A DNA stretch of 64,000 bases. It comes from Onthophagus taurus (taxonomy: Eukaryota > Arthropoda > Insecta > Coleoptera > Scarabaeidae). The notes beneath the pieces are model-generated. The model was not told the origin of the DNA. It did no database searches and saw only the letters and a list, made by a program, of their open reading frames with translations. Position 1 is the stretch's first letter. Each line of letters starts with the position of its first letter. Shown here piece after piece: positions 3,606-36,300 of this stretch. The stretch spans positions 7,006,001 to 7,070,000 of the forward strand of contig NC_091967.1 in NCBI RefSeq assembly GCF_036711975.1, written 5' to 3'. The translations under genes were made by a program, and so were the position numbers.

Positions 3606-3609
3606 TTAT
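3606..3609. repeat. Left target-site duplication TTAT
   Basis: TTAT immediately before the 5' LTR, repeated at 14135-14138 immediately after the 3' LTR. Four-base duplications are typical of Ty3/Gypsy integrases. Confidence 0.9.
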
Positions 3610-4146
3610 TGTAACAAGTCAGAAAAGATATCTATATTTAATTCGGGGAAGTACAGAAATATTTTGGGAGTGGGGACAACGGATGAGGGACTCGCGAAAA
3701 GAGCAGGCAGACAGAAGAAGTTAGAGAGAGTGTGGTCGAGAGTTAGAGTAGAGGCATGGGTAAAGTGTGGGAATGAAAAGTGGAAAAAGACTAAAAGAAA
3801 TTAAAAGAGAAAAATAAGAGAAGAAAGTAGAGAAGAAAAAGGTGTCAATCAACCCAAAAACCATTATGTGAGTACGAGATAGAAATAATTACTGTTTTTT
3901 TTTTTTTGTTTATTTTATTTGCGTTTAAAAGAAATTAAATTAAAGTATCTCATTAATTAATTCAAAGTTTTTATTGATCTTTTGTATTTTGTTTATTGAC
4001 ATCCGCCGCTTGATCCTTTCCCCATTGTCTTTTGACACACTTAACCACGTTACGAGGCTCCTATAAAGAGTGGACCCGAGGAGAATACCCTTCTCCGAGA
4101 ATATACTCGGGGGCCTCTTACCACCTCACGCTCGGGGGTGGTAACA
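3610..4146 (+). repeat. 5' LTR
   Basis: 537 bp, starting TGTAACAAGTC and ending GGTGGTAACA. It is AT- and A-rich apart from a GC-rich last 85 bases. A TATAAAG box lies at 4062-4068. Downstream are two stem-loops: GGAGAA/TTCTCC at 4080-4096, extended by CCCGA/TCGGG at 4075-4079 and 4107-4111; and TTACCACC/GGTGGTAA at 4118-4125 and 4137-4144. If the TATA box is used, these stems lie in the R-U5 leader of the RNA. A short open frame through this segment appears in both LTRs and is not considered a gene. Confidence 0.95.
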
Positions 4147-4150
4147 TATT

Positions 4151-4168
4151 TGGTGGCAGCGGGGTGGG
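4151..4168 (+). other. Primer-binding site, probably tRNA-Leu
   Basis: TGGTGGCAGCGGGGTGGG, four bases inside the LTR. It starts with TGG (pairing with tRNA CCA). The first 12 bases are complementary to the 3' end expected for tRNA-Leu of the AAG/UAG isoacceptor type, which ends in CCGCTGCCA plus CCA. Beyond that the match is imperfect. The tRNA assignment is from memory of tRNA sequences and is tentative. Confidence 0.6.
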
Positions 4169-4603
4169 ATGTGTGTTGAAGCGGTGTGGGATGTGTGTTG
4201 AAGACGGGTGGAGACGTGTTAACGGTGAGATGTATGTAAAAATATGAGAAATTCCCCTTTATTCAAATTAAAATTAATCCCAACAACATAGATTTGGTTA
4301 TGTAAAAATCGAAATTATTTTCATTGTTATTTTGTGTCGGTCATTTGAGTTAAAATAGAGCTTCAAATCTTTTTTTTAATGAGATAGAGAGAGAAAGGTA
4401 GTATTTTTGCTAAAACAAATTTATCATATTATAAACTGAGATCCAGACGGTCTGAGCTGTTCCAGCGTATCGCACTTTAGAAATCGCGAAATCATCAAGT
4501 TGCGAATTACTCTTGATAACGGACCCCTTTATAAAATTTTTATTTTGCAAATACCATATACTTACATTTTATTTAAGTTTTATTCGAACTAAAAACCAAA
4601 ATA
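4169..4603 (+). other. Retroelement 5' leader
   Basis: About 435 bp between the primer site and the gag ATG. It begins with a short tandem duplication (GTGGGATGTGTGTTGAAG twice, about 4164-4203) and is otherwise AT-rich. A donor-like GAAAG/GTAGTA near 4393-4403 could serve env splicing, but this is not proven. Confidence 0.5.
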
Positions 4604-5770
4604 ATGGCTACAAATACAGATGAAAAACCTATCGTAAAAGTTGAAATGCCTAAACCATCATTAGCATCTATTTTAAATTCAATTGAAAATTTTACTGGTA
4701 AAGAGAACGTTAAACATTTTTTTGAACGAGTAGAACAGAGAGCAAGTTTAGATAACATTGGAGACGAAGACTTAATTAAAATCGTGCGATGTAGACTAAC
4801 GGGAGACGCATTCAGTTACTATAAAAGCGAATCAAATTTATCAACAAATGAAATAACATATAAGCAATTCAAACAAAAATTTATTACAAAATTTTCGAAA
4901 TTGAAAATACCAGGTCAGGCTCAACTAATTTTGTCAAGATGTATACAGGGCCGTAACGAAACTATCAGTCAATTTCTCACGCGACTAAAATTAATTGGAC
5001 AGGAGGTATTAGAAGAGGATTTAATTGACGCTTCACAGGCGGAACGGGAGGGTATAATTAAAAAACATAACAATATTCTATTGACGCAATTTAGAATGGG
5101 AATAAAACGGGAAATTTCTAAGATTATTGGAGTTTTGCTGATGCGAGAGAGTGATTTAACACTCGATAAAGCCGCAGAAATAGCGAGTCAAGAAGAATTG
5201 AACCAGATGATGACGGAAAATACAATTAACTACTGTTCACATAGTTATTATTCTGAATATGCTTGTAATTTCTCTCAAGAAGGTGTTTCTAAATCTCAGC
5301 CTCATTCAACTGCACCACGGGTTAGTTTTAATAAACCAAATTTTAAACCACAGCAATTCAATAAAAAGAATCGCCCATCCATTTCATATCATTCATCATT
5401 TTCTAAACCTTTCGAATCTAACTCAACAAAACCTGATTTTAAATATAATCAAAAATCAAATAATGTGTGTTACAAATGTTATCAACCGGGACATTTTTCT
5501 GGGAATTGTCGGAATGAGGTTGTTTGTAGATTTTGTAAAAAAACGGGTCACGTAGAAGTTAAGTGTTGGAAAAAGAATAACCAATCAAGGGGACAAGCCG
5601 GTACGAGTAACCATACTACTCGATCCCATACTCAGTTTAACCATCAAAATGGAAATATAAGAAATGAATCACGCAACCCAAATGAAACACAAAATTTTAT
5701 AAGAACGGGAACCAGTCATTTAAACCTAAATGCCACCTCGTATGTACCCCAATCCGAGGGAAAATGTTAA
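4604..5770 (+). CDS. gag: Retroelement Gag polyprotein
   Basis: 388 residues. This is the structural protein that packages the element RNA into cytoplasmic particles. The N-terminal 200 residues have the helical character of Ty3/Gypsy capsid proteins (an FTGKENVKHFFERVEQ-type start, LTGDAFSYY, and a QFLTRLKLIGQE-type stretch). A basic, Ser/Asn-rich linker follows. Two CCHC zinc knuckles are intact: C-X2-C-X4-H-X4-C at residues 289-302 and 308-321. The ATG at 4604 follows a long leader. The frame overlaps pol and contains a -1 slippery heptamer 45 bases before its stop. No damage is visible. Confidence 0.95.
   Translation: MATNTDEKPIVKVEMPKPSLASILNSIENFTGKENVKHFFERVEQRASLDNIGDEDLIKIVRCRLTGDAFSYYKSESNLSTNEITYKQFKQKFITKFSKLKIPGQAQLILSRCIQGRNETISQFLTRLKLIGQEVLEEDLIDASQAEREGIIKKHNNILLTQFRMGIKREISKIIGVLLMRESDLTLDKAAEIASQEELNQMMTENTINYCSHSYYSEYACNFSQEGVSKSQPHSTAPRVSFNKPNFKPQQFNKKNRPSISYHSSFSKPFESNSTKPDFKYNQKSNNVCYKCYQPGHFSGNCRNEVVCRFCKKTGHVEVKCWKKNNQSRGQAGTSNHTTRSHTQFNHQNGNIRNESRNPNETQNFIRTGTSHLNLNATSYVPQSEGKC
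5719..5759 (+). promoter_or_regulatory. Programmed -1 ribosomal frameshift signal, gag to pol
   Basis: T TTA AAC at 5719-5725 lies in register with gag, the canonical X XXY YYZ -1 slippery heptamer. The pol frame is open through this point: its last upstream in-frame stop is at 5683-5685. Ten bases downstream a CCTCG/CGAGG stem can form (5736-5740 with 5755-5759, 14-base loop), a spacing suitable for a stimulatory structure or part of a pseudoknot. A Gag-Pol fusion would therefore start in the pol frame from about 5725, making the ATG at 5764 unnecessary. Confidence 0.8.
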
Positions 5771-8700
5771 ATCCAGGGGTTAATGATCAGATTACAAATA
5801 AAAACGCAATAGTAAAATCAGTTAGCAGTGCTATAAATTCAGAGGCAGACAAATCCATAATTTTTTTAACAATGGGGTGTACAAAATTATCATTTTTGAT
5901 TGATTCGGGTTCAGCAGTATCGTTATTGAAGGAGGAGAGTTTACTCCGGACAAAAATTAATTACCAATTAGATTTGCAACAACATATAACTTTAAAAGGT
6001 ATCACGGGAAATGAAGTAGAAGGAGTAGGATTTTCTTTGTTAGATTTTAGGGTGAAAAACAAGAAATTTAATATTAATTGTGTGATTTGTAAAAATATTG
6101 CCATTGAAACCGATGGGATAATCGGATGCGACTTCCTAATTAGCAATCAAGCTATTCTTGATTATAATCAGGGAATTTTGAAGTTAGGACATATTCACTT
6201 GAAATTGATCATGACATCATCAAAAAGACAAAAATCTTCTACTGCGCATGGGAACTGTTTACAAAATGACATGAATATGAGTGAGAAAAGCAACTGCCAA
6301 ACACAAATTATGAAAACTCCCTCTCCAGTTTTAACTAAAAGTTTCCCATTTAAGGTGTTAACATCGAAAAATGAAGAACTATTATCTTCCAATAAATCTT
6401 CGGGATTGGGTTTTGGTTTATCAAATGGGTGCGATAAACAAAAGATAGGGAATAAAGAAAATATGGAAAAGGTTGGAGTAATGCAAACACAAACGAAGGA
6501 TCATCGAGAGAAAGAAAAGAACACGGAGAGATCATCGTCATCTGGACCAAAGATGATTGGTGATACAGAACGAACAGTTGGTCCCTGTTCGGCTCTGTTG
6601 ATGGAGGCTTTAGAAATTCCGGGACGATGTGAGGTTGTTTGTGAAGCTTTACAAAACCAATGGGAAAAAGATGAAGAAGTTATCATTGAACCAATTGATA
6701 CGGGTGTTTATGGGTCAATGTCAGCAAGAGTTGTAACAAGGGTAAATAAAAATCAACGGGTTCCGGTGCGCCTGATCAACGTCACCGAGAAACCATTAAT
6801 GTTGAATAAGGGAACAAGTGTTGGAATTATTACGCGCGTAAATAAAATTGATATTGAACACAAAGGAGATGAGAATTCATCAGCTGGGATTTGGGAAGAG
6901 GTACCTCAACTTGAAAATGTAAATGGTGTAAATAGCACTACTCATAAAAGGGAGAAAATGTATGGTAATTACAGGGAATACGAAGAGAAAATATCGAAAA
7001 ATATTGTAGAAAATTGGGATATTCTTGAAGATAAGGGTAATTTATTTGATGCGCCGAGGGATTATAGCTTGGCACATTGTGTGAGTGAAGATTTGAAAAT
7101 GGGAGCAGGAATCGCTGCTGAAGTCAAAGAGAAATTTATGGGAATAAAAGAATTAAATAAACAGAATCCAAAAGTGAGAGATGTTTTGTATTTAAGACGA
7201 GATGGAAGGTATATTTTGTACCTTATTACTAAAAGAAAATATTTTTATAAACCAACTTACGAAGATTTGTTTTATACCTTGGGAAAATTAAGGGAATTTT
7301 GTGAGAAAAATAATATTCATAAATTAGCCCTACCAAAGATTGCTTGTGGGTTAGATGGGTTAAAGTGGGACAGAGTTATCAATATGATCAGATGGATATT
7401 TAAAGGATCAAATATTTGGGTGAGAATTTATCATCTTAATGGATTGGATAGGGATGTGAACCCTTATTCAGTTCGTGTAATAGATACTGGAATTGAAAAC
7501 GCGGAGGATGACATACAAAAGTTATTTGATTTAAATCATTTGAAAGGTGAAGATAAACGGTTATTATTAAAATTGTTAATTGAGTACAAAGATATCTTTT
7601 TATTTGGAAATAATAAATTGGGAACTGCTAATGGCGTGAAACATAGAATTGTTACAGAGGCTTGTCATCCAATTGCAAAACCACCATACCGAGTACCACA
7701 TAGTCAAAGGGAAATTTTAAATAAAGAAATAAGCAAAATGCTTGACGAAGGAGTGATTGAAGAGTCGCAATCACCTTGGTCAGCACCTGTTGTTATGGTA
7801 CCGAAAAAGTCTGATAATGGAAAACAAGAAGTTCGAGTATGTATTGACTACCGAGGGTTAAATTCAGTCACTAAGAGGGATTTCTATCCGTTACCTAACC
7901 TGAACGAAACAATAGATAGATTGGGAAGTTCTACCATATTTACAACACTAGACCTTGCTTCTGGGTATTGGCAAGTGGAAATAGAAGAAGAAGATCAAGA
8001 AAAAACCGGATTTAGTACGTCAGAAGGGCACTATCATTGTAAAAAGATGCCATTTGGTCTGGTCAATGCGCCCAGTACCTTTCAACGGTTAATGAATACC
8101 AATTTATCGGGATTAACGGGGAGTAAGTGTTTAGTTTATTTAGACGACGTTATAGTATTCAGTGGGAACGAAATAATTGAACATCTAAACAGACTGAAAG
8201 AAGTGTTTGAAAGAATTAGAAGGGCAAATTTGAGATTAAAACCAAGTAAATGCAAGTTTTTACTATCCGAAACCAAATATTTGGGTCACGTTATTTCAAA
8301 CGAAGGAATCAAACCAGATGCAGAAAAAGTTCAAGCTGTACTTAATTATCCTAAACCAAAAACTGTAAAAGATATTCGGGCATTTTTAGGATTAGCAGGA
8401 TTTTATAGGCGGTTTATTGAAAGTTATTCAGCAATTGCTAAACCTTTAACGGCATTAACAAAAAAGGATCAACCTTTTATTTGGGGAGAAGAACAGGAAA
8501 AATCATTTACTTTACTTCGGAAATCTTTGTGTGATAAACCTGTTTTACACTATCCTGATTTCACACAACCTTTTTATCTAACCACGGATGCTTCGGGAAT
8601 AGCAATAGGAGCTATACTAAGTCAAAAAGTTGGAGGACATGAAAAACCTGTGGCATATGCCAGTAGGCAACTACAAAAAGCAGAAATGAATTACTCCACT

Positions 8701-10527
8701 ACAGAAAGAGAATGCTTGGCGGTGATATGGGGCGTTAAACATTATCGGGTATATTTGTTTGGAAAACATTTTAAAATCATAACAGATCATCGACCATTAA
8801 AATGGTTATTGTCAATCAAAGATCCAAGTTCACGTTTAGCCCGATGGGCATTAACGCTAGCAGAATACGACTTTGAAATAATACATCGACCAGGACGATT
8901 ACACGGAAACGCTGATGCGTTATCCAGAGTGCAAATAGAGGCAGGAGTAAATTCTTTAACCACCGGAGAGATAAAGACAATAGCAGATAAACAGAAGGAG
9001 GATTGTTTTGCTAAAACTATTATTGAAAGAATTGAAAACGATCCAAAGTATTTAGATTTCTTTATTGACGAAGAGGGGATACTATATAAAACAAAACAAC
9101 AGAATGAAAGATACCATAGATTAGTAGTACCAACGGAATTAAGAAAAGAAATTATGTATCAATGTCATGACTTGCCGTATGCTGGACATTTTGGAGTCGA
9201 TAAAACCAAGTCTCAGGTGAAGCAAAAGTACTATTGGAAAAATATGGGCGACGATATAAAAAGCTACTGTGACAAATGTTTAGCCTGTAACAAACGGAAA
9301 AGTTCGTCACATTTAAAACCAGCTCCATTACAATTATTTACGCCAGCACAGGAACCATTTGAAAGGGTATCAATGGATATCGTAGGACCATTGCCGATCA
9401 CCTACAATGGAAATAAATATATACTCACGGTTCAAGATTATTTTACGAGATACACCGAAGCGATCCCATTGCAAAATCAGAAGGCTGAGACAGTGGCGAA
9501 AGCTTTTGTGGTGCATGTGATTACGCGGCATGGGACTCCAAAGGTATTACTTACCGATCAAGGCACAAATTTCATGTCGAAATTAATGGACGAAGTATGT
9601 AAATTACTACAAATCAAAAAGATTCGCACTACTCCATATCATCCACAAACGAATGGCATGATTGAGAGAATGCATCGAGTTTTAAAGGACTTACTATCTC
9701 ATGTGGTAGATGATAAACAAAAAGATTGGGACGATTGGTTGCCATATGTAATGATGGCTTACCGAAACAACGTACATTCTACTACCGGAGAGTCTCCATA
9801 CTTTTTACTTCACGGAAGGGATATGAATCTACCCTACGAACTTTATACCAAACCAGATCGTTATCGATATGATTATGACGACAATTACGTATCCGAACTG
9901 CTGGAACGATTACATCAATCGTATCAGTTTGTGAGAAGTCATGAGGTCAAAGCTAAAAATAAACAATTAGTTCAATTTAATAAAAGGGCTAAAGAGAAAA
10001 ATCTGGAACTAGGTGACAAAGTATTATTATATAATCCAGGGATCAAAACTGGAGTAAATTTAAAGTTAAGTAAACCATGGGTAGGACCATACCGAATAAT
10101 AGGACAAACAGGTCCAGTAAACTTTAAAATAAAGGAAATTAATGGTTCAAAAGTCGAATTAGTACATTCGAATCGTATAAAACTCTATAAGGGAGATGTT
10201 GAAGAAAAGAGAAAGAAAGAGTCAGATACTAAAGACCTAGAGAACAACAAATTGAGTTTTGATATAGAAGAACCTATGTGGTATGATTGGAAAGTATTTC
10301 CGGACCAAAATAACGAAGACGGAGGGGAAGATCTGTTAGAAGAACAGACAGCTCAGAGTATAGTGGAATACGTTCCAGAAGAAAATATAGAAGATACTAA
10401 CCTCGAAACAACTGAACCAGGGAATGATACAACGGTTCAAAGAGAAGAAAACACTGGGCATTCATATCTTACCAGAAGTAGAGGTGATGTACCAGAATTG
10501 CCATGGGTATTACCGAAAAGAATTTAA
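5764..10527 (+). CDS. pol: Retroelement Pol polyprotein with macrodomain
   Basis: 1587 codons from the first ATG; the protein is probably made as Gag-Pol by -1 frameshift. Domains in order: retropepsin (DSG at 47-49, IIGCDFL near 120); a linker of about 130 residues; a small beta-rich domain at about 275-365 of the kind found after protease in many metazoan Gypsy elements; a TARG1-like macrodomain at about 424-560; reverse transcriptase with YLDD at 792-795; RNase H (first Asp 942, TDHRPLKWL later); integrase with an HHCC zinc finger from His 1135; catalytic D1205, D1265 and E1301 (DX35E); a GPY/F module near 1440; and an acidic tail of about 110 residues. All catalytic residues looked for are present and the frame is unbroken, so activity is plausible. 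Confidence 0.96.
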   Translation: MLNPGVNDQITNKNAIVKSVSSAINSEADKSIIFLTMGCTKLSFLIDSGSAVSLLKEESLLRTKINYQLDLQQHITLKGITGNEVEGVGFSLLDFRVKNKKFNINCVICKNIAIETDGIIGCDFLISNQAILDYNQGILKLGHIHLKLIMTSSKRQKSSTAHGNCLQNDMNMSEKSNCQTQIMKTPSPVLTKSFPFKVLTSKNEELLSSNKSSGLGFGLSNGCDKQKIGNKENMEKVGVMQTQTKDHREKEKNTERSSSSGPKMIGDTERTVGPCSALLMEALEIPGRCEVVCEALQNQWEKDEEVIIEPIDTGVYGSMSARVVTRVNKNQRVPVRLINVTEKPLMLNKGTSVGIITRVNKIDIEHKGDENSSAGIWEEVPQLENVNGVNSTTHKREKMYGNYREYEEKISKNIVENWDILEDKGNLFDAPRDYSLAHCVSEDLKMGAGIAAEVKEKFMGIKELNKQNPKVRDVLYLRRDGRYILYLITKRKYFYKPTYEDLFYTLGKLREFCEKNNIHKLALPKIACGLDGLKWDRVINMIRWIFKGSNIWVRIYHLNGLDRDVNPYSVRVIDTGIENAEDDIQKLFDLNHLKGEDKRLLLKLLIEYKDIFLFGNNKLGTANGVKHRIVTEACHPIAKPPYRVPHSQREILNKEISKMLDEGVIEESQSPWSAPVVMVPKKSDNGKQEVRVCIDYRGLNSVTKRDFYPLPNLNETIDRLGSSTIFTTLDLASGYWQVEIEEEDQEKTGFSTSEGHYHCKKMPFGLVNAPSTFQRLMNTNLSGLTGSKCLVYLDDVIVFSGNEIIEHLNRLKEVFERIRRANLRLKPSKCKFLLSETKYLGHVISNEGIKPDAEKVQAVLNYPKPKTVKDIRAFLGLAGFYRRFIESYSAIAKPLTALTKKDQPFIWGEEQEKSFTLLRKSLCDKPVLHYPDFTQPFYLTTDASGIAIGAILSQKVGGHEKPVAYASRQLQKAEMNYSTTERECLAVIWGVKHYRVYLFGKHFKIITDHRPLKWLLSIKDPSSRLARWALTLAEYDFEIIHRPGRLHGNADALSRVQIEAGVNSLTTGEIKTIADKQKEDCFAKTIIERIENDPKYLDFFIDEEGILYKTKQQNERYHRLVVPTELRKEIMYQCHDLPYAGHFGVDKTKSQVKQKYYWKNMGDDIKSYCDKCLACNKRKSSSHLKPAPLQLFTPAQEPFERVSMDIVGPLPITYNGNKYILTVQDYFTRYTEAIPLQNQKAETVAKAFVVHVITRHGTPKVLLTDQGTNFMSKLMDEVCKLLQIKKIRTTPYHPQTNGMIERMHRVLKDLLSHVVDDKQKDWDDWLPYVMMAYRNNVHSTTGESPYFLLHGRDMNLPYELYTKPDRYRYDYDDNYVSELLERLHQSYQFVRSHEVKAKNKQLVQFNKRAKEKNLELGDKVLLYNPGIKTGVNLKLSKPWVGPYRIIGQTGPVNFKIKEINGSKVELVHSNRIKLYKGDVEEKRKKESDTKDLENNKLSFDIEEPMWYDWKVFPDQNNEDGGEDLLEEQTAQSIVEYVPEENIEDTNLETTEPGNDTTVQREENTGHSYLTRSRGDVPELPWVLPKRI
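7030..7440 (+). other. Macrodomain (TARG1/OARD1-like ADP-ribosyl hydrolase) inside Pol
   Basis: Pol residues about 424-560 have the motif order of the TARG1/OARD1 macrodomain: KGNLFDAP; SLAHCVSEDLKMGAGIA, the ADP-ribose loop; LRRDGRYILYLITKRK; KPTYEDL; and LPKIACGLDGLKW, the second binding loop. In human TARG1 the catalytic residues are Lys84, in ITK, and Asp125, in GLD. Both are kept here as K490 and D531. TARG1 removes ADP-ribose from Glu/Asp residues and cleaves O-acetyl-ADP-ribose. The domain is in frame and undamaged. The fold is firmly recognised; its role in the element is inference. Confidence 0.93.
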
Positions 10528-10714
10528 TAATTTTTATGTATACATTTTGTTGGTTGTTTTCATTGATTATTATTAATAAGGTTTTATCTATCTAGACATA
10601 GTATATTGTTAAGGCTTCGAATATTAATACATAGATATAATACGTTTTCTTGGGATTTATAGATTTATAGGAGTATAATTGTTTGAATACATTAATAAAA
10701 TATATATTTTCAGG
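10528..10714 (+). promoter_or_regulatory. pol-env junction with candidate env splice acceptor
   Basis: AT-rich spacer. TATATATTTTCAG ends at 10713, a good 3' splice site. The env-like frame is open from 10679 and runs through the site. The hydrophobic leader of the env product is encoded just after it, which suits expression from a spliced subgenomic RNA, as known for insect errantivirus env genes. Confidence 0.6.
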
Positions 10715-12658
10715 TTCTATTTAACTAGTTGGCTACTGATTTTTACGGGGATGTATATAAAGGGTTTAATTGTATACGATTGTCGGGGACCATCTACCAA
10801 CATTACAGCAGTGTCGCTTCACGATGTGGCACCCTGTCCATCTCCGCAAACAAACTACACCGAGAAGAAAATAAATGTCCGAGTGATTCAGAAAAATGAC
10901 TATTCCAAAATAAAAGTAAAAACTTGTCTTATAGAAGTAACACGGTTGATAAGATATTGTGGTATGAATAGTCATGTTAGTGATGTCCACCAAGGGTTGA
11001 TGAAAACCATCAGGCCAATTGGACGAGATGAGTGTCGAAAACTTCATAATACTGGTACTTATATAGGATATTCAGGGAATGTTATTTCTAATATAAAAGT
11101 AAATGCCACAACATCTGCATCAATTACCGTTGCTGGGAAGTTATCTATGAACGGAGATTGTGAAGGAACAGTTTATACAGAAAATGGTCAGACATGGTCT
11201 AGGGTAGTTGTTACTGCAGCTGTTACATTTATGTTAAAAGAATATTATGCCACTATCGCTTTGGATTCTAATGAAATATCATTGATGGGAGGAGTTACAT
11301 GTCCATTTGTAGATGGATACTGTATGGATGTTGAAGCAGGTGAAACTATTTGGGATGAAATAGAACAAGGAGCTTGTAAGAAACGGCAATATTCAATTAT
11401 TTATGAAGGTATTGGAACAGAAGTTTCAGTAAGTAGTCAGGATACAGTTGAAAATTATTTGGTTGTTGAGCAAGACGAATACATCTTTGCATTGAATCTA
11501 CTAAGGAAGGGTATTGTATGTAACTATGAGGTTTGGGTTACCGAACATCCTCGATTACTAGTAACAAAATCTAAAAATGCTTTTTATCATTTAAATTCTA
11601 AAACTCATGACGTCAATAATATAAATCTGTTGACATATGTTAATTCAAAATTTATGTATATTGAAATTTCGTCAAAATTATTGTTTAGAGAGTTACATGT
11701 TCAAGCAGTATATCGAAGATGTTTAATAAAGAGAGAAGTATTGAGAAATAGATTGTTGATGGCACCTTTAAATACAAATGCTATTGCCAGTATTTTCAAG
11801 ACTTCTCTGGGGTATATGGGAAGGGTTTTAGGGGAAGTTTTATACATCATTAAATGTGAACCAAAAATCGCAGAAGTGCGAAGGGTTGATAAATGCTATA
11901 ATGAATTGCCGATACTGGTTAATAACAATGAGTCATTATTTATGGCTCCAATCACACATGTAGTGCAAGAGCATGCCGAAGAGATAATGTGCTCTCCGGT
12001 AGCTCCTTCACTATTTTACATAGAGAACCGATGGGTAGGATTTAGTCCATATCCCACAGTGTATAATTCTCCAGCTTCTTTAGAAATTAACGATGAAAAT
12101 AATATAAAATTTAGTCCTATTCGAAAGTTGGGAAGTGGAGGATTGTATACTCAAAATGAAATTGATAAGATTCAACATAATTTTCTGTTTGGATCCGAGC
12201 GTGATGCAATTACCTCATTTTTAGTCAATCGGGTTGCAGGTAGAACTGATGATTCAAACCAGTACGACACAACAAAATTATTTAGTTCAAAAGAAATTAA
12301 ACGAATCGCTAAGTCGACACTAAGTTATGCTTGGGGTTGGTTTACCGATATTGGGATTTTTATGTCAGGATTTATGGGAATATACATAGCATTTATCATC
12401 CTAAAATATATTTGTTCAGTAATTTTAAATGGTTTTGTTTTATACCAGGCTCTGGGATGCGGATTTTCGATTATTGCCAGTTTTTGGACGACTTTAACTT
12501 CATGGTTTTTACATCGAAGTTATAATCACAAAGTATCAGATCCAGAGAACCAGGAAGATTTTGCACGAGTACAAGATGGTCATTCTGTTCAACCTACAGC
12601 ACCCCATAGCAGTAAAGTGATGTATCCGGAAATCCATATTGTACAAGAGACGCCATGA
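10679..12658 (+). CDS. env: Env-like membrane glycoprotein of the retroelement
   Basis: The open frame is 659 codons, but the first ATG is at 10751 (635 codons). A hydrophobic stretch just before that ATG (codons about 12-24) looks like the main part of a signal peptide, so an upstream exon probably supplies the start. The ectodomain is Cys-rich with several N-X-S/T sites. A strongly hydrophobic segment at about 553-605 would be the membrane anchor, followed by a tail of about 55 residues with PTAP at 639-642. Particle release and cell-to-cell spread are the expected roles of such a protein. I could not match it to the baculovirus-F type env usual in errantiviruses. A distant relation to insect negative-strand RNA virus glycoproteins is possible but unproven. 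Confidence 0.8.
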   Translation: MFEYINKIYIFRFYLTSWLLIFTGMYIKGLIVYDCRGPSTNITAVSLHDVAPCPSPQTNYTEKKINVRVIQKNDYSKIKVKTCLIEVTRLIRYCGMNSHVSDVHQGLMKTIRPIGRDECRKLHNTGTYIGYSGNVISNIKVNATTSASITVAGKLSMNGDCEGTVYTENGQTWSRVVVTAAVTFMLKEYYATIALDSNEISLMGGVTCPFVDGYCMDVEAGETIWDEIEQGACKKRQYSIIYEGIGTEVSVSSQDTVENYLVVEQDEYIFALNLLRKGIVCNYEVWVTEHPRLLVTKSKNAFYHLNSKTHDVNNINLLTYVNSKFMYIEISSKLLFRELHVQAVYRRCLIKREVLRNRLLMAPLNTNAIASIFKTSLGYMGRVLGEVLYIIKCEPKIAEVRRVDKCYNELPILVNNNESLFMAPITHVVQEHAEEIMCSPVAPSLFYIENRWVGFSPYPTVYNSPASLEINDENNIKFSPIRKLGSGGLYTQNEIDKIQHNFLFGSERDAITSFLVNRVAGRTDDSNQYDTTKLFSSKEIKRIAKSTLSYAWGWFTDIGIFMSGFMGIYIAFIILKYICSVILNGFVLYQALGCGFSIIASFWTTLTSWFLHRSYNHKVSDPENQEDFARVQDGHSVQPTAPHSSKVMYPEIHIVQETP

Positions 12659-13583
12659 ATTTTCGATTAAATATGTCGTTACGTGTTTGTAACACAAAGA
12701 CACTCTTATTGTCTGTAATTAGGTTAAGAAGTTATTGTTATGAAAAAGGAAAAAAAAAAATAATAATTCATTAAGAGAAAGTTAAGAAAGTTTGATACTC
12801 ATCACCATGTGGAGGTAATAAGTTTCGAATAGTTTTTTTTTTTGAGTTGTTAAAAATTTTTTTAAATTTATGAATGAAAAGTTTTGATTTAAACAAAGGT
12901 TTGCATATTGAATAACGCAATATATCTTATCAAAATAATTCTCCGAAAAAGAAAAAAAAATGCTGGGAAATGAAAAGGAAACGCCTTCCTTTCCTTAGAA
13001 TGGATTAAAAAAAAAACAACTACGAAGGATGAAGCTGTTAGTTATCGGGCATGTCGTATGGAAAACGATACAGAAAAAGTAAAGACAGGAAAAGAAAAAA
13101 AAAAATTACCACAAAACTTCGAAAGAAAGAAAAAAATACATATATATTAAAAAGTAAAGAAAAGAAAGAAAAAACAAACAAAACAATATATATGTATATG
13201 TTATGAAGAAAAGCGAAAATTAAGTTACAACTGTAGTTGACACAGCCAGTTAACACTAATAGTAACGATGATGCTCTACAATGAAGAAAAAAAAAAAAAT
13301 CTTGAATAGATATATTGTTTGGGTAAAAACGTAAACGAGTATTGATAACATGTTGATGACCATGTTGATGAGTATTTAAGGCATTAGTTTTATAAACATA
13401 TATGTACTTTATAAGAAAAAAAAAAATATTTCAATTTCTTTTTGTAATAGAGTTAAGTTTATTTTGATGTTTAATTATGTATTGGATTTTTGATAAAATT
13501 GTTGATTGACACTTGGATTATACAAAATATTTCTGTTTTCTTTTTAAATAAGTTGTTGGTAATGCGTAACCAACATCTTAATT
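12659..13583 (+). other. Retroelement 3' non-coding region
   Basis: About 925 bp between the env stop and the polypurine tract, very A-rich with many runs of eight or more A. No coding frame of interest was seen. Its length is unusual for a Gypsy element. It could hold packaging or RNA-export signals, but no specific motif was recognised. Confidence 0.6.
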
Positions 13584-13594
13584 AAAGGGGGGAG
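13584..13594 (+). other. Polypurine tract
   Basis: AAAGGGGGGAG, three bases before the 3' LTR. This is the expected RNase H-resistant primer for plus-strand DNA synthesis. Confidence 0.85.
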
Positions 13595-13597
13595 TAA

Positions 13598-14134
13598 TGT
13601 AACAAGTCAGAAAAGATATCTATATTTAATTCGGGGAAGTACAGAAATATTTTGGGAGTGGGGACAACGGATGAGGGACTCGCGAAAAGAGCAGGCAGAC
13701 AGAAGAAGTTAGAGAGAGTGTGGTCGAGAGTTAGAGTAGAGGCATGGGTAAAGTGTGGGAATGAAAAGTGGAAAAAGACTAAAAGAAATTAAAAGAGAAA
13801 AATAAGAGAAGAAAGTAGAGAAGAAAAAGGTGTCAATCAACCCAAAAACCATTATGTGAGTACGAGATAGAAATAATTACTGTTTTTTTTTTTTTGTTTA
13901 TTTTATTTGCGTTTAAAAGAAATTAAATTAAAGTATCTCATTAATTAATTCAAAGTTTTTATTGATCTTTTGTATTTTGTTTATTGACATCCGCCGCTTG
14001 ATCCTTTCCCCATTGTCTTTTGACACACTTAACCACGTTACGAGGCTCCTATAAAGAGTGGACCCGAGGAGAATACCCTTCTCCGAGAATATACTCGGGG
14101 GCCTCTTACCACCTCACGCTCGGGGGTGGTAACA
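13598..14134 (+). repeat. 3' LTR
   Basis: 537 bp, identical by eye to the 5' LTR, including the 13-T tract. It is followed directly by TTAT at 14135-14138. Its TATAAAG box points at the METTL22 gene, which starts 171 bp downstream on the same strand. Confidence 0.95.
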
Positions 14135-14138
14135 TTAT
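14135..14138. repeat. Right target-site duplication TTAT
   Basis: Matches the TTAT at 3606-3609 and confirms that the LTR ends are at 3610 and 14134. Confidence 0.9.
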
Positions 14139-30300: not shown

Positions 30301-33300
30301 TTAACTCAAAGCAGCTGTTATATCAGGATCAACAGGCGGTCCTACTTCTAAAGCAGCCAATTGATCAAACTCTTCTCTCTGTTTATCTAGGTAGTTATTA
30401 ATTTCAAGCACTTTTGTTCTATTCCTTATTATTTCATCTCTAAAATCGAAATTGATATAATTAAATAAAGAAAGTTGAATTTGTATTTATGTTTTTTCAT
30501 AAAACTTACTTTGCAAGATTACTTACTAATCCGTTTAACCAATTTTTGGCTCTATTCACCAAGCGATCCTCTCGATTATCAATTGCAAGAAGGTGCATAT
30601 CATGTGAAGCACCCAAACTGTTCGTTAATATATCTTTGTCAGACATCAACTATTTAAAAATAGGATCGAAATGAATCTTATTTAATTAATAAATCATTAC
30701 ATACCGTTTTTAGTTCTTTAGGCATAACAAAATCGGGTGTTAAACTCGTCATTGTCATATATCGTTGAGCACAATCGTTAATATTTTCGGTATAAGTTTG
30801 TTCGGCGGTTCTCATTTGAGCAAAAACACCTTGAGCGTATTCAATAAAAGTATTTATCATCTCAGTTAAAGCTTGTTCAAAAATTTGATTTACATCTTCC
30901 ATTTGTTCATAAACGACCATTTCTAAACCCATCAATGTCTTCCAAGTTTCGTGGATTAACAAAGAATATTGCTCGCCGTAATCGAAAACTTTTTGATTAT
31001 AATCGGCGATCGTTAATTCTCGATTATCAACATCTTCTTGAAGCTTTTTTATGGTTGAAAAAATTTTGTTCTTTTTAACTATAAACTGTTCCATTTGATC
31101 CTACATTTTTAAATTTTTTATATTAAAATTAAATAAATTCAAGAAGCAAATACAAATTTACAATGCTCTCTTGTTGACTTTTCTTCTTAGCAGCATTAAC
31201 ATTTTTCATAAAACTTTCCACTTCCTTATGGCGTATTTTGTATTGTTCTTGACCAAAATTAAATATTTGAAGACAATAAGTGAGGAAAGCAGTTTCAAGT
31301 TCGGTGTAAAAATCTTTTGGATCGTCACCGATTTTCATTAAGCTCTGCAGATCAACATCTTCTTCAAACATTTGATCAAATAAATGGTTACTACCCAAAA
31401 ATTCAATAAAACTGTCTGCATATAACTCAGATTCGGCATTTTCAGCCGCAATTTTATCATCGATTTCTTTCTGCTTAGCTTCTACTTCTTCAATTTCTGA
31501 TAAAAGACTACTATATTTAAAAAAAAATTACATTAATAAAATATGTTGAATAAGTATAGACTTTTGATGCAGATAATGCAATTAGGTGAAGATTGAATGT
31601 GTGGTAACGAACACATTTCGGAAAAGGACTCACACCGTTACAAAACATCCAGAGGTTTCTAAAGGATGCCAAAGCTCAATTTGGGATGTAGCACCATTGG
31701 AGAGAGCTACAATTCTAGATGAAATAAAGCCAAAAGAAACGATCTCTGATTCGTTAGGTACATGATGGAGAGAGAACGCCATTCATTGGATCCCAACCCG
31801 GTTGTGAACTACAAAAAAGCCACCTAGAACAAGTAATGAACATTTGGGAGCCCTCAAAGGTAGTCTTACGCTGGAAAGAACTTCCACGTCATAGACAAGC
31901 GAAGAGTAGAACTGCGCAAAACGAAATCAAACAGGTTTTATGTCTCAGCAAAGGGGATCTAAGGACACTCTCAGGTTTCTTAACCGGCCATGCGCCCTTA
32001 AAACACCACCTCTTGCACATTGGACAAGCTAAGGATCAAACATGTCGATTTTGCAACGACGAGTCAGAAACGGCTGAACATATACCGTGTAATTGTGTTG
32101 CCAGAATGTTTTGACACCTACCGACATAAAGGAACAAGACCTTGGAGCAATACTAAGATTCATTAAGGACCTACATTTGCTCTAAATATTTGGAGGGGTA
32201 AAGTTACAATAGAACTTATAGGTCGCTCCCCCCAGGTCGGCAGCAATAATAATAACCCCACAAGAGAAGGAAGAGAAGTAGGCGCCAAAAGGAGTAAATA
32301 AGACGATTTCAGAGTGGATCTTAACAGAGGGCATAAAATAAATTAAAAAATATTTGTTAAACATATGTATTATTTAATCTAATTACATCAAGTCTTTAAA
32401 ATTACATCAAATTAATTTATTTAATTTCTTCTTCGTCTTACTCTTGATATTCTCCAAGCATTAGGTTCTTCATATTTATTATATAAAGGTTCTAATCGTT
32501 GATTTTTCTTAAATTTACTTAACTTAGTAGGATCAGAAAATTTGAAAAATGCCGGAGCAAACTCCACCAACCATTTTGGATCAATTGTTGTCACTTCTCT
32601 CATATACTCTTTAGTTGTTTGAACCAATTCATGGTAAATTACCCATTCAGGTTGCCGATTAAAAAGCGCACTAGACGGATGAATATAAACAACTTGACTG
32701 TCAACTAAAGTTCTGTAACCTTCTTGAGGATCCTTTTTTGCCGCGTTTCTAAAGAACCCTGAACAAACCGCTTTTTGTACTCGAACTGTGTTCTTTTCGG
32801 CCGAAACGACGTCGAGTTTATGCCGATCCATTATTCCCAGGAGTTGTTTTCGTACATCTTGGGCACGTTTAAGTGTTCGTATTTGAACGAAATTTTCATA
32901 ACACCAAGCGTTTGAGAATTTATTGTTTTTCCAACTGTTATAAACCGCGAGTAAAGTGAGATGGTCTCCTTCGGGTTGGTTAAATTTAGCTTTTTTTTGG
33001 TCGGCGATTGCTTGTTTATCCTTTGGTCGATAAAAAACGTTTTGTACCGAGAGCATACTTACAATAGTCAAAATTTCATCGGAACATTGTAAAGCGACAG
33101 ACATGATTAACATCTTTGATAAGTTAGGTTCTAACGGAAATTCGGCCATTCGTCGACCTAATCTTGTCAATAACCCTTCGTCGTCTAAAGCTGACAAGGA
33201 ATGTAATTGTTCTAAAGCCATGATTAAAGATTCAACTGGTGGGGCGTCCATAAAATCGAAATGTAATAAATCGTTAATTCCCATTGTTTTTAGCTGTAAG

Positions 33301-36300
33301 ACGGTTGTTGCTAAATTAGTTCTTTGTATTTCTGGAACTGGTGTTGGTAACATTTCGTCTCTATAAGCTCTTTCTGTGTAAAGTCTGTAACATTTTCCTG
33401 GCCCGGTTCGCCCAGCTCTTCCAGCTCTTTGTTTAGCTTGTGCTTGAGAAATTGGAGTAACAACCAACGAGTCCATACCAGTTTTTGAATTATATACTTT
33501 TTGTTTTACAAATCCTGGATCGACGACGTAATAAATCCCATCGATTGTTAAAGAAGTTTCCGCTATATTCGTAGCTATAACAACTTTTCGACTTCCTGGA
33601 GGAGCTGGTTCGAAAATTCTCGTTTGCATTTCTGATGGTAAAGCGGAATAAACGGGTAAAATAATTAATTCGGGAACATCGGGACCTAAACTTTTCATTC
33701 GTTCATATAAAATTTCGCACGCCGTATCGATTTCTTCTTGACCAGTTAAAAATAATAAGATATCACCTGGGGGCTCCCTCAAATGGATTTGCATAACTGT
33801 AATTAAGCTAGCGTCTAAATAATCAGTTTCTGGTTCCTTTGTGTATAAAATTTCAACCGGAAACGTTCTTCCAGGGATTGTAAAAATGGGGGCTTCGAAA
33901 AAATATTGCGAAAATTTGACAGCGTCTAAAGTAGCCGATGTTACTATTAATTTTAATTCGCTCCTCTTAACAACAGCTTGTTTTAAAAGTCCAAATAAAA
34001 CGTCTGTATGAATTGTACGTTCATGAGCTTCATCCAACATTATTACTGAATAAGATTTTAAATCTAAATCCATTAAACACTCCCTTAACAACATCCCATC
34101 TGTCATGTATTTTATTACAGTTTCTGGACAAGTACAATCTTCAAAACGAATTGTGTACCCAACTTCCTGTCCTAAACGACACCCAAATTCTTCAGCGACT
34201 CTTTTTGCTACCGACATTGCAGCTACTCTTCTTGGTTGAGTACAACCTATTTTTCCCCTCGATGTTAATCCAGCTTCTGCTAGATATTGAGTGATTTGAG
34301 TTGTTTTTCCAGAACCAGTTTCACCAATAACAATCAAAATTTGATTATCAGTGACAGCTTTAATTAATTCCTCGCGTAATTTATAAATGGGAAGAGATTG
34401 CCTTTGCTCAATAATCGAAAGATTTGTTTTTTTACCAAACGAAGATTTTTTACCGCCAATAACATGTTTTTTCCATTCGGGTAAATCTTGAGATTGCAAA
34501 CCAATTCCGCGGATGTTTGATGTATTTTTAATATCATCTTCGGGTAACGGATCGATCCAATTTTTGTTTTTTCCGGATGGTTGAGCTTCAACTTCTTGTT
34601 CGCGTTGTAACATCTTTTGTTCGCGTCTTTCTTTAGCCAAAGCTGATTGCATCATCGCAGCTTGGGCCAAAGAACCATCGGGATTTTTAACAATTCTAAC
34701 CGGGGATAAATCATGAAGTGCACGACCATGACCGTGTAAAAACGGCGGTTCTTCTTCTACCAACTCAATTTCAATATCTGCTTCAGCTCCATCATCATCT
34801 TTAGGTAATAACCCCGTTTCTTCATCGAAATCGGGAAGTTCACTTTTATCGATACATCCAGAAGAAATCATCTGTTTTATTTCCCATCGTTCTGGGCTCG
34901 ATATGCGAGTAACCCTTTTTTGCGACGTCTCCTCATTCTCATCGATTCCAACTGGAAGGCGCAAAACTGAAGTACTTGTGTGAGTTGGCCGGTCGGGATT
35001 ACGGTCTTTATCTTCACGTTCTATTGGCGCGTGAGAATATGGGTTTAAATCTTTACCCGTCATTTGACAAACATCTTTCATTGAGAGAGATACTTTTTGC
35101 CCCGTTACTGATAACACCTTAACTTTAACCCTACCACCCCTTGAGACGACTTCCGAAACGTTAGTCACGCGTCCTTCCGCTCTTAATTGAGAAATATGAA
35201 CTAAACCTTCCCAACGCCGTTTTAAACCCTCAAGTTGTACAAAACAACCAAATGGAACGATATTTGCTACTTTTCCATTGTAAATTTTACCTAAAATTGG
35301 ATCATCTTCCATTTCGGGGCTTTCTCTGCGATTTCTTTTTTCATTTCTATCCGGTGATCTTCTGCGGAATTCTCTCGAACGACTTCTTCTTCTTCGATCT
35401 TCTCTAGATCGACTTCTTCTTCGATTTTCTCTGGATCGGCTTCTTCTTCGGTCCTCTCTAGATCGACTTCTTCTTCTTCTATCATCTCTTAATCTATCTC
35501 TAGAGGAATCTCGTTTTCGGGAACGACTTCTAGATTTTTTTCTATTTCTAGAACGACTCCTTCTCCTCTCTCTGGATCGTTTTCTTTCTGCCGACCTACT
35601 TCTTTCCCTCGATTTGTTTCTACTCCTATTTGCTTTTCCTTTTTCAATCTTTTTAGAAGGGGCGTCTGCCTCTAATTGCGCCATTAAATCATCAATTCCA
35701 CCTTCTGCTTCTTCAGAAGAATCAGCTTTATCTTCAAATGTTAAAGGTTTTTGTGGTTCATTTGGAATTGCTAAACCCGGAAATTTAACAGATAAAGAAT
35801 CTGATGGGGCGTTAAAATCTGAGGATGTACCCGGTTTTTTGAAAGGTTTCATGTGTTGGATTATACGAAGTAAATTAGCAACAAACGAATCTGAAAACTC
35901 CGCTCCATTTTCTTCCAAAACTTTTTTAAATGATTCAAGAGTGTTGTGTTTTTCTGATAAATGAATTATAAATTCAGCAAGATCTTTATCGTTCATTCCA
36001 AGATGATTTTCTAATTCCGTGCAAACCTTAGACACCAAAGAAAGGTGCTCCAATTTGTCGATTTCGTTCATTGTTGACGTTTTTATTGTAACCTCAATAT
36101 TTTGAAGCTTAACTTTTTACGAACTTCTTTACTTATTCACTTTATAATTAAATGTAAGTAATATATTACAATTTTCGTTGAATTATTATGTATCATAAAC
36201 CTTATACAGTTTTAAAGTAACCTCACATTTTGTTATGCTATTATGGATTGAAGTATTGGTAACTGTTATTTAAATCAATAGATGGCGCGAGTTACAACAG

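Follow-up and report, generated by a model that had tools for sequence, protein, structure and literature searches.

What does a macrodomain do inside the Pol polyprotein of a retroelement, and how did it come to be there? The question is raised by a 64,000-nucleotide stretch of the Onthophagus taurus genome (hereafter the window; contig NC_091967.1, positions 7,006,001 to 7,070,000), in which residues 423–559 of the Pol protein of a long terminal repeat (LTR) element of the Ty3/Gypsy kind are almost certainly a TARG1/OARD1-type (ALC1-like) macrodomain. Macrodomains in RNA viruses are thought to counter host poly(ADP-ribose) polymerases (PARPs). The reading that we favour, with a confidence slightly better than even, is that a TARG1-type ADP-ribosyl hydrolase was captured and fused into Pol, where it removes ADP-ribose from the proteins of the element or from the ends of its nucleic acids.

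A TARG1-type macrodomain within Pol

When searched against solved macrodomains, the Pol domain matched five TARG1 sequences at E-values of ~3e-39 (the best, 2.6e-39, being human TARG1), with the next match at 0.015. An AlphaFold2 model has the macrodomain fold, with a predicted local distance difference test score (pLDDT) of 89.1, and its best match in a fold search was again TARG1 (0.8 Å, 48% identity). Alignment shows that both loop motifs of TARG1 and the equivalents of its catalytic residues, K490 and D531, are present in the window domain. The features concerned, in window coordinates, are:

7003..7467, + strand: stretch given to AlphaFold2 (pLDDT 89.1; predicted template modelling score 0.85)
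7030..7440, + strand: TARG1/OARD1-type macrodomain, Pol 423–559 (E 2.6e-39 to TARG1; fold match 0.8 Å)
7231..7233, + strand: K490 codon, equivalent of TARG1 Lys84 (alignment)
7354..7356, + strand: D531 codon, equivalent of TARG1 catalytic acid 125 (alignment)

A first-pass annotation, made from the sequence alone, had assigned the domain to the TARG1 class motif by motif, this catalytic pair included, and had seen that it lies in an open reading frame (ORF); both the sequence matches and the predicted structure bear the assignment out. The domain, at 15.2 and 20.9 bits, falls short of the curated cut-off of 22 bits for the Pfam family PF01661 (Macro). An alphavirus-type macrodomain was considered and rejected, with identities to the model of 10–16% and fold scores below those of TARG1. 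The window domain is likely to be enzymatically active.

Related copies in the genome and in other sources

A search of the whole genome gave at least 81 matches at E ≤ 0.001, a host-like gene included. Ten of these, counting the window, are 99–100% identical over the whole domain (seven at 100%), and the remaining 71 range from 23 to 97% identity, many of them partial. Wherever the neighbours are readable, the domain has reverse transcriptase (RT), RNase H or integrase next to it within one Pol. Its place varies: in the window family and at locus L012 it lies between protease and RT, in most other fetched families (L015–L027 and L043–L046) between RNase H and integrase, which is also the Pfam order for L022 and the protein P0003, and at L028, where RNase H was not seen, before the integrase; a distant version stands before RT at L047 and L048.

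Of the TARG1-type retroelement copies, 28 are readable at both catalytic positions, and 26 of these, the window among them, keep the lysine and the aspartate; 12 of the 28, however, come from the window's own family and are hence not independent. L011 has lost the lysine (K to N) and L016 the aspartate (D to N). These counts come from a listing of 37 loci, with 13 repeat loci skipped (L002 and L029–L040) and no D position at L014 and L049. The pair persists in families whose domains are 43–58% identical to that of the window.

Further relatives come from other sources. Four of 157 candidates in a protein database are Pol proteins with the domain: in P0001–P0003 it sits between RNase H and integrase, whilst in P0004, a metagenome protein, it lies behind the integrase and is followed by a CCCH-like finger. 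The same macrodomain and CCCH tail are found in P0010, a 224 amino acid protein of Brassicogethes aeneus without integrase, whose CCCH match is slightly under the Pfam cut-off. P0003 passes the PF01661 cut-off with 28.3 bits, and PF01661 stands in the database's Pfam column for both P0002 and P0003, so that the architecture is visible by annotation. A scan of IMG/VR yielded one relative, a stand-alone TARG1-like ORF of 139 amino acids (L051:3986–4405). The closest viral fold matches include Kadipiro virus VP8 (43% identity), proteins of flavi-, negev- and virga-like viruses of thrips (27–37%) and a Cressdnaviricota protein; the Kadipiro and thrips virus matches would fit with antiviral ADP-ribosylation in arthropods. 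Separately, a eukaryote transcript (P0007) combines a macrodomain with PF02825, which we take to be the WWE domain.

Thus the domain is present in related copies, as the first-pass annotation required, and is not peculiar to one element, given its three positions in Pol and the further families with a worn-down form described below; nor has the catalytic pair been lost from all relatives. That it is a one-off insertion, an assembly error or a chance resemblance has next to no probability, and is refuted by the genome matches, the relatives from other sources and the E-value to TARG1; the genome, protein and structure-sequence searches gave no support for it.

Constraint on the domain

Between families, the proportions of replacement (pN) and silent (pS) differences in the domain are 0.186/0.789 for L022–L028, 0.361/0.904 for L020–L022, 0.342/1.000 for L020–L028, 0.353/0.830 for L015–L017 and 0.267/0.749 for the window and L012 (which holds one stop). 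Replacement changes are therefore far rarer than silent ones in all five comparisons and the domain is under constraint, as had been supposed from its intact frame. Silent sites are saturated, so these values do not give an exact dN/dS ratio, and near-identical copies give noisy ratios (0.78 for the domain in L020–L021).

The element carrying the domain

The macrodomain belongs to a complete LTR element, a gag-pol-env provirus at 3610–14134, with the following features:

3606..3609, no strand: target-site duplication TTAT, left (from the window letters; the same four bases follow the right LTR)
3610..4146, + strand: 5' LTR, TG...CA (identical to 13598–14134; end placed at TG...CA from the letters)
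4604..5770, + strand: gag ORF, 388 amino acids (Retrotrans_gag; zinc knuckle match slightly under the Pfam cut-off)
5764..10527, + strand: pol ORF, 1587 amino acids (protease region, macrodomain, RT, RNase H, integrase)
5839..6213, + strand: protease region, Pol 26–150 (weak Pfam matches below cut-off; gag-asp_proteas E 0.0095)
7798..8295, + strand: reverse transcriptase, PF00078 (E 1.6e-33)
8557..8868, + strand: RNase H, PF17917 (E 1.5e-41)
9127..9306, + strand: integrase zinc-binding domain, PF17921 (E 3.7e-23)
9349..9645, + strand: integrase core, PF00665 (E 8e-15)
10679..12658, + strand: env-like ORF, Monjiviricetes (chuvirus-type) fusion glycoprotein, PF24664 (E 1e-181, 605.7 bits)
13598..14134, + strand: 3' LTR (identical to the 5' LTR)
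14135..14138, no strand: target-site duplication TTAT, right (from the window letters)

LTRs, target-site duplication, gag and a pol order of protease (below cut-off), RT, RNase H and integrase place the element in Ty3/Gypsy (Metaviridae). Its two LTRs, each of 537 bp with TG...CA ends, are identical over 538 aligned bases, in agreement with the earlier view that it is young. It had also been described as errantivirus-like, which holds for the layout but not for the envelope. The envelope of errantiviruses is likely of baculovirus origin, according to the available part of PMC12440569, and assignment to the errantiviruses by envelope was rejected, the third ORF matching only PF24664 and not an errantivirus-type env.

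PF24664 glycoprotein ORFs, or pieces of them, also lie downstream of pol in the window family (L009), in a family comprising L021 and L024, and at L022. There is thus one complete Gypsy element here with a chuvirus-type env and two further families with pieces downstream of pol; the authors of PMC10084718, in the text available, report no clear evidence for capture of a chuvirus-type glycoprotein by Gypsy elements. Elsewhere in the window, at 32421–36071, there is an uninterrupted ORF of 1216 amino acids, which looks as if it encodes a Prp22/DHX8-like splicing helicase of the DEAH-box class.

A role in removing ADP-ribose?

TARG1 takes ADP-ribose off aspartate and glutamate and off phosphates at nucleic-acid ends, and PARP1–3 modify phosphates at DNA breaks, according to the available sections of PMC7050489 and PMC6582358. 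Once captured as a domain of the Pol polyprotein, a TARG1-type hydrolase should enter the particle alongside RT and integrase, and, being fused to one or other of these, would adjoin the element's RNA and new cDNA ends. Host ADP-ribosyltransferases would place ADP-ribose esters on the phosphate ends of that RNA or cDNA, or on carboxylates of Gag and Pol, and the domain would most likely strip these esters within the particle, the advantage to the element being that reverse transcription and integration are unblocked. In some lineages the ADP-ribose loops would later have changed whilst the fold stayed in the spacer between RNase H and integrase.

Several observations weigh against a hydrolase of this kind as the general explanation. 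Eight loci (L044–L048, L052, L053 and L055) keep the fold with altered ADP-ribose loops, so that, to judge from their sequences, full activity seems dispensable for some elements. In L044, L045, L046 and L048 the loop corresponding to MGAGIA is either altered or absent, and the GCGLD-like loop is altered too; lysine and aspartate still align at the catalytic places in L045 and L046, L044 retains the aspartate and L048 the lysine. With a profile built only from TARG1-type domains L044–L046 score 65–78 bits and L047–L048 34–45 bits; with one built only from stand-alone (cellular-type) domains the scores are 56–69 and 31–42 bits. Searching the protein database with the worn-down L046 domain gave 958 candidates, none of them at E ≤ 0.001.

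L044–L048 were originally found by homology, and a more independent test is provided by L052–L058, seven RT relatives taken from a survey that scored 150 of 1673 candidate RT places. The domain accompanies RT at 50 of these 150 places, including all of the best 40, and the remaining 100, from which the seven come, have no macrodomain match within 3 kb. Scored with the TARG1-type profile, the L053 spacer reaches 44.0 bits and that of L052 31.0, whereas the best of 3000 shuffles is 13.8. L055, at 13.1 bits, falls within the range of the shuffles; a profile including the worn-down domains raises it to 29.8 bits (shuffle 11.1), and the match of L052 to this wider profile spans the later part only. 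Two, possibly three, seemingly macrodomain-free families would thus carry an altered form of the fold, and with these hidden domains in L052 and L053 (more weakly L055) the count of 50 in 150 is probably too low. The spacers of L054, L056, L057 and L058 show no macrodomain in this test. In L054, L056 and L058 the long RNase H–integrase spacer without a match occurs in a clade that otherwise bears the domain, and is either a different domain or one decayed past recognition.

Rates of change add to the difficulty. Replacement in L020–L022 is 0.361 for the domain against 0.211 for RT and 0.171 for the integrase core (~1.7 and 2.1 times as high), and in L022–L028 it is 2.9 times that of the integrase core; in L015–L017 the domain and RT are about equal (0.353 and 0.384). 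In most comparisons the domain outpaces RT or the integrase core, which fits host conflict and weaker constraint alike.

The structural alternative is that the fold serves Pol as a linker or docking surface, that hydrolysis is incidental and that the active-looking families are simply less decayed or newer captures. Retention of the fold with altered loops in eight loci (L055 more weakly), whether between RNase H and integrase or before RT, speaks for it and against one universal enzymatic role, and pN below pS in the worn-down pair L045–L046 (0.352/0.678, 71 codons; compare 0.543/0.814 for L044–L045) fits a structural role as well. Conservation of the catalytic pair in all but two of the readable TARG1-type copies, including families little more than half identical to the window domain or less, and the depletion of replacement changes argue the other way, and we regard a purely structural role as unlikely. 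Somewhat less likely again is a tether or sensor that steers integration through binding to ADP-ribose on PARylated chromatin, or to PARP1 at DNA breaks. In most of the fetched families the domain neighbours the integrase, in P0004 it comes after it, and TARG1 interacts with PARP1 (available text of PMC7050489); in the window element, however, it lies between protease and RT, away from the integrase, and a pure reader would not require the catalytic pair. Metabolic use, that is clearance of O-acetyl-ADP-ribose or free ADP-ribose esters in particle or cell, could draw on the action of TARG1 on O-acyl-ADP-ribose (same source), but it offers no reason for fusion to Pol and the genome already appears to have an OARD1-like gene (L041), making this very improbable.

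Trees and the origin of the domain

A Pol tree of 19 chosen rows including the window (L012 and L050 were lost, having no or too little match) places the window sister to the L015, L020 and L022 families (support 96/94), and a tree of RT and RNase H (22 chosen rows) places it sister to L015/L020/L022/L043 (96/95). From one RT set, near-duplicates and rows of fewer than 180 RT residues were removed. In a second RT and RNase H clade (100/99) active-looking L017 and P0001–P0003 are mixed with worn-down L044–L046, L052, L053 and L055 (L044 filling only 21% of the columns) and with L054, L056 and L058, which lack the domain. This clade is most simply read as coming from an active ancestor whose loops were later lost, and less simply the other way round.

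The macrodomain tree, weakly supported overall, groups the window with L012, P0005, L017 and P0001–P0003 (80/92), unlike the Pol tree, a conflict reflecting domain transfer, new capture or noise. The macrodomain set was made without the other window-family copies (L001–L011, L013 and L014), L019, L023, L043, L049 and P0014, the first tree additionally without L018, L021 and L025–L027, and the trees for the approximately unbiased test (p-AU) additionally without L016, L024, P0013 and L044–L048. A single origin of the retroelement macrodomains gives p-AU 0.388 with P0004/P0010, 0.385 without them and 0.379 with P0005 included; forcing the window family together with L015/L020/L022/L028 gives 0.163, and those four alone 0.384. 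Neither one capture nor several is rejected by these sequence comparisons, ~145 columns being too few to separate them.

It had been proposed that the element took the domain from a host TARG1-like gene. The host's OARD1-like gene lies at L041 (about 940–1520), where two exons join to an open TARG1-like frame; it falls on an unresolved fork without a supported neighbour, so that capture of this host's own gene is not upheld. The gene contains a single short intron, and an open, charged stretch precedes it; L042, a near-copy that has decayed, shows this intron-like gap too.

A broader reading, which we hold tentatively and at a little under even, is that the macrodomain is an old Pol domain, for the most part unrecognised, that belongs to a large insect assemblage of Ty3/Gypsy elements. 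It would have entered as a TARG1-type hydrolase, come to occupy three positions in Pol, remained catalytic in some lineages (including that of the chuvirus-envelope retrovirus) and in others been worn to a spacer without catalysis, the trace of a long contest over the ADP-ribosylation of reverse-transcribing elements.

Comparison with known systems

If the favoured reading is right, a TARG1-type hydrolase in Gypsy Pol would point to ADP-ribosylation as a restraint on reverse-transcribing elements too, and the occurrence of intact alongside relocated and worn-down domains hints at a contest with the host over the ADP-ribose tag. The question can be tested, since among the related elements of a single genome some have an intact domain, others a worn-down one and others, so far as observed, none. 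The worn-down copies also raise the prospect that macrodomains lie unrecognised in the RNase H–integrase spacers of other Gypsy elements.

A word search for 'macro' found it absent from PMC10084718, PMC12440569, PMC12992720 and PMC13172572, and, by title or opening of the abstract, no report of a macrodomain in Ty3/Gypsy Pol appeared among the literature matches listed, most subscription journals lying outside the coverage. The nearest cellular protein, TARG1 (OARD1, C6orf130), shares with the window domain 48% identity, a fold matching to 0.8 Å, the catalytic Lys–Asp pair and both loop motifs; unlike it, the window domain sits inside a retroelement Pol, with an activity predicted from sequence. 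The macrodomains of alphaviruses and rubella virus likewise lie inside a viral polyprotein, but these are RNA viruses and the identities to the window model (10–16%) and fold scores are lower. Those of Kadipiro virus VP8 and the thrips viruses are close in fold (27–43%) but belong to other kinds of virus, without reverse transcription. Viral macrodomains have been suggested to oppose host ADP-ribosylation (available sections of PMC7050489 and PMC6582358). For the envelope the closest parallel is Anakin of mosquitoes, an LTR element with a chuvirus-type glycoprotein (PMC12440569 and PMC10084718, in the parts available) that is, however, a Pao element (PMC10084718) and not Gypsy. Capture of a macrodomain by a retroelement is already known: epsilon-like endogenous retroviruses of fish carry macro domain proteins (Basta 2009, as cited in PMC4977317). 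In the available part of that source these are additional open reading frames of vertebrate retroviruses, of no stated macrodomain class, whereas that of the window element is inside Pol. A TARG1-type domain within Gypsy Pol, in several positions and with worn-down forms, is new as far as the literature searches go.
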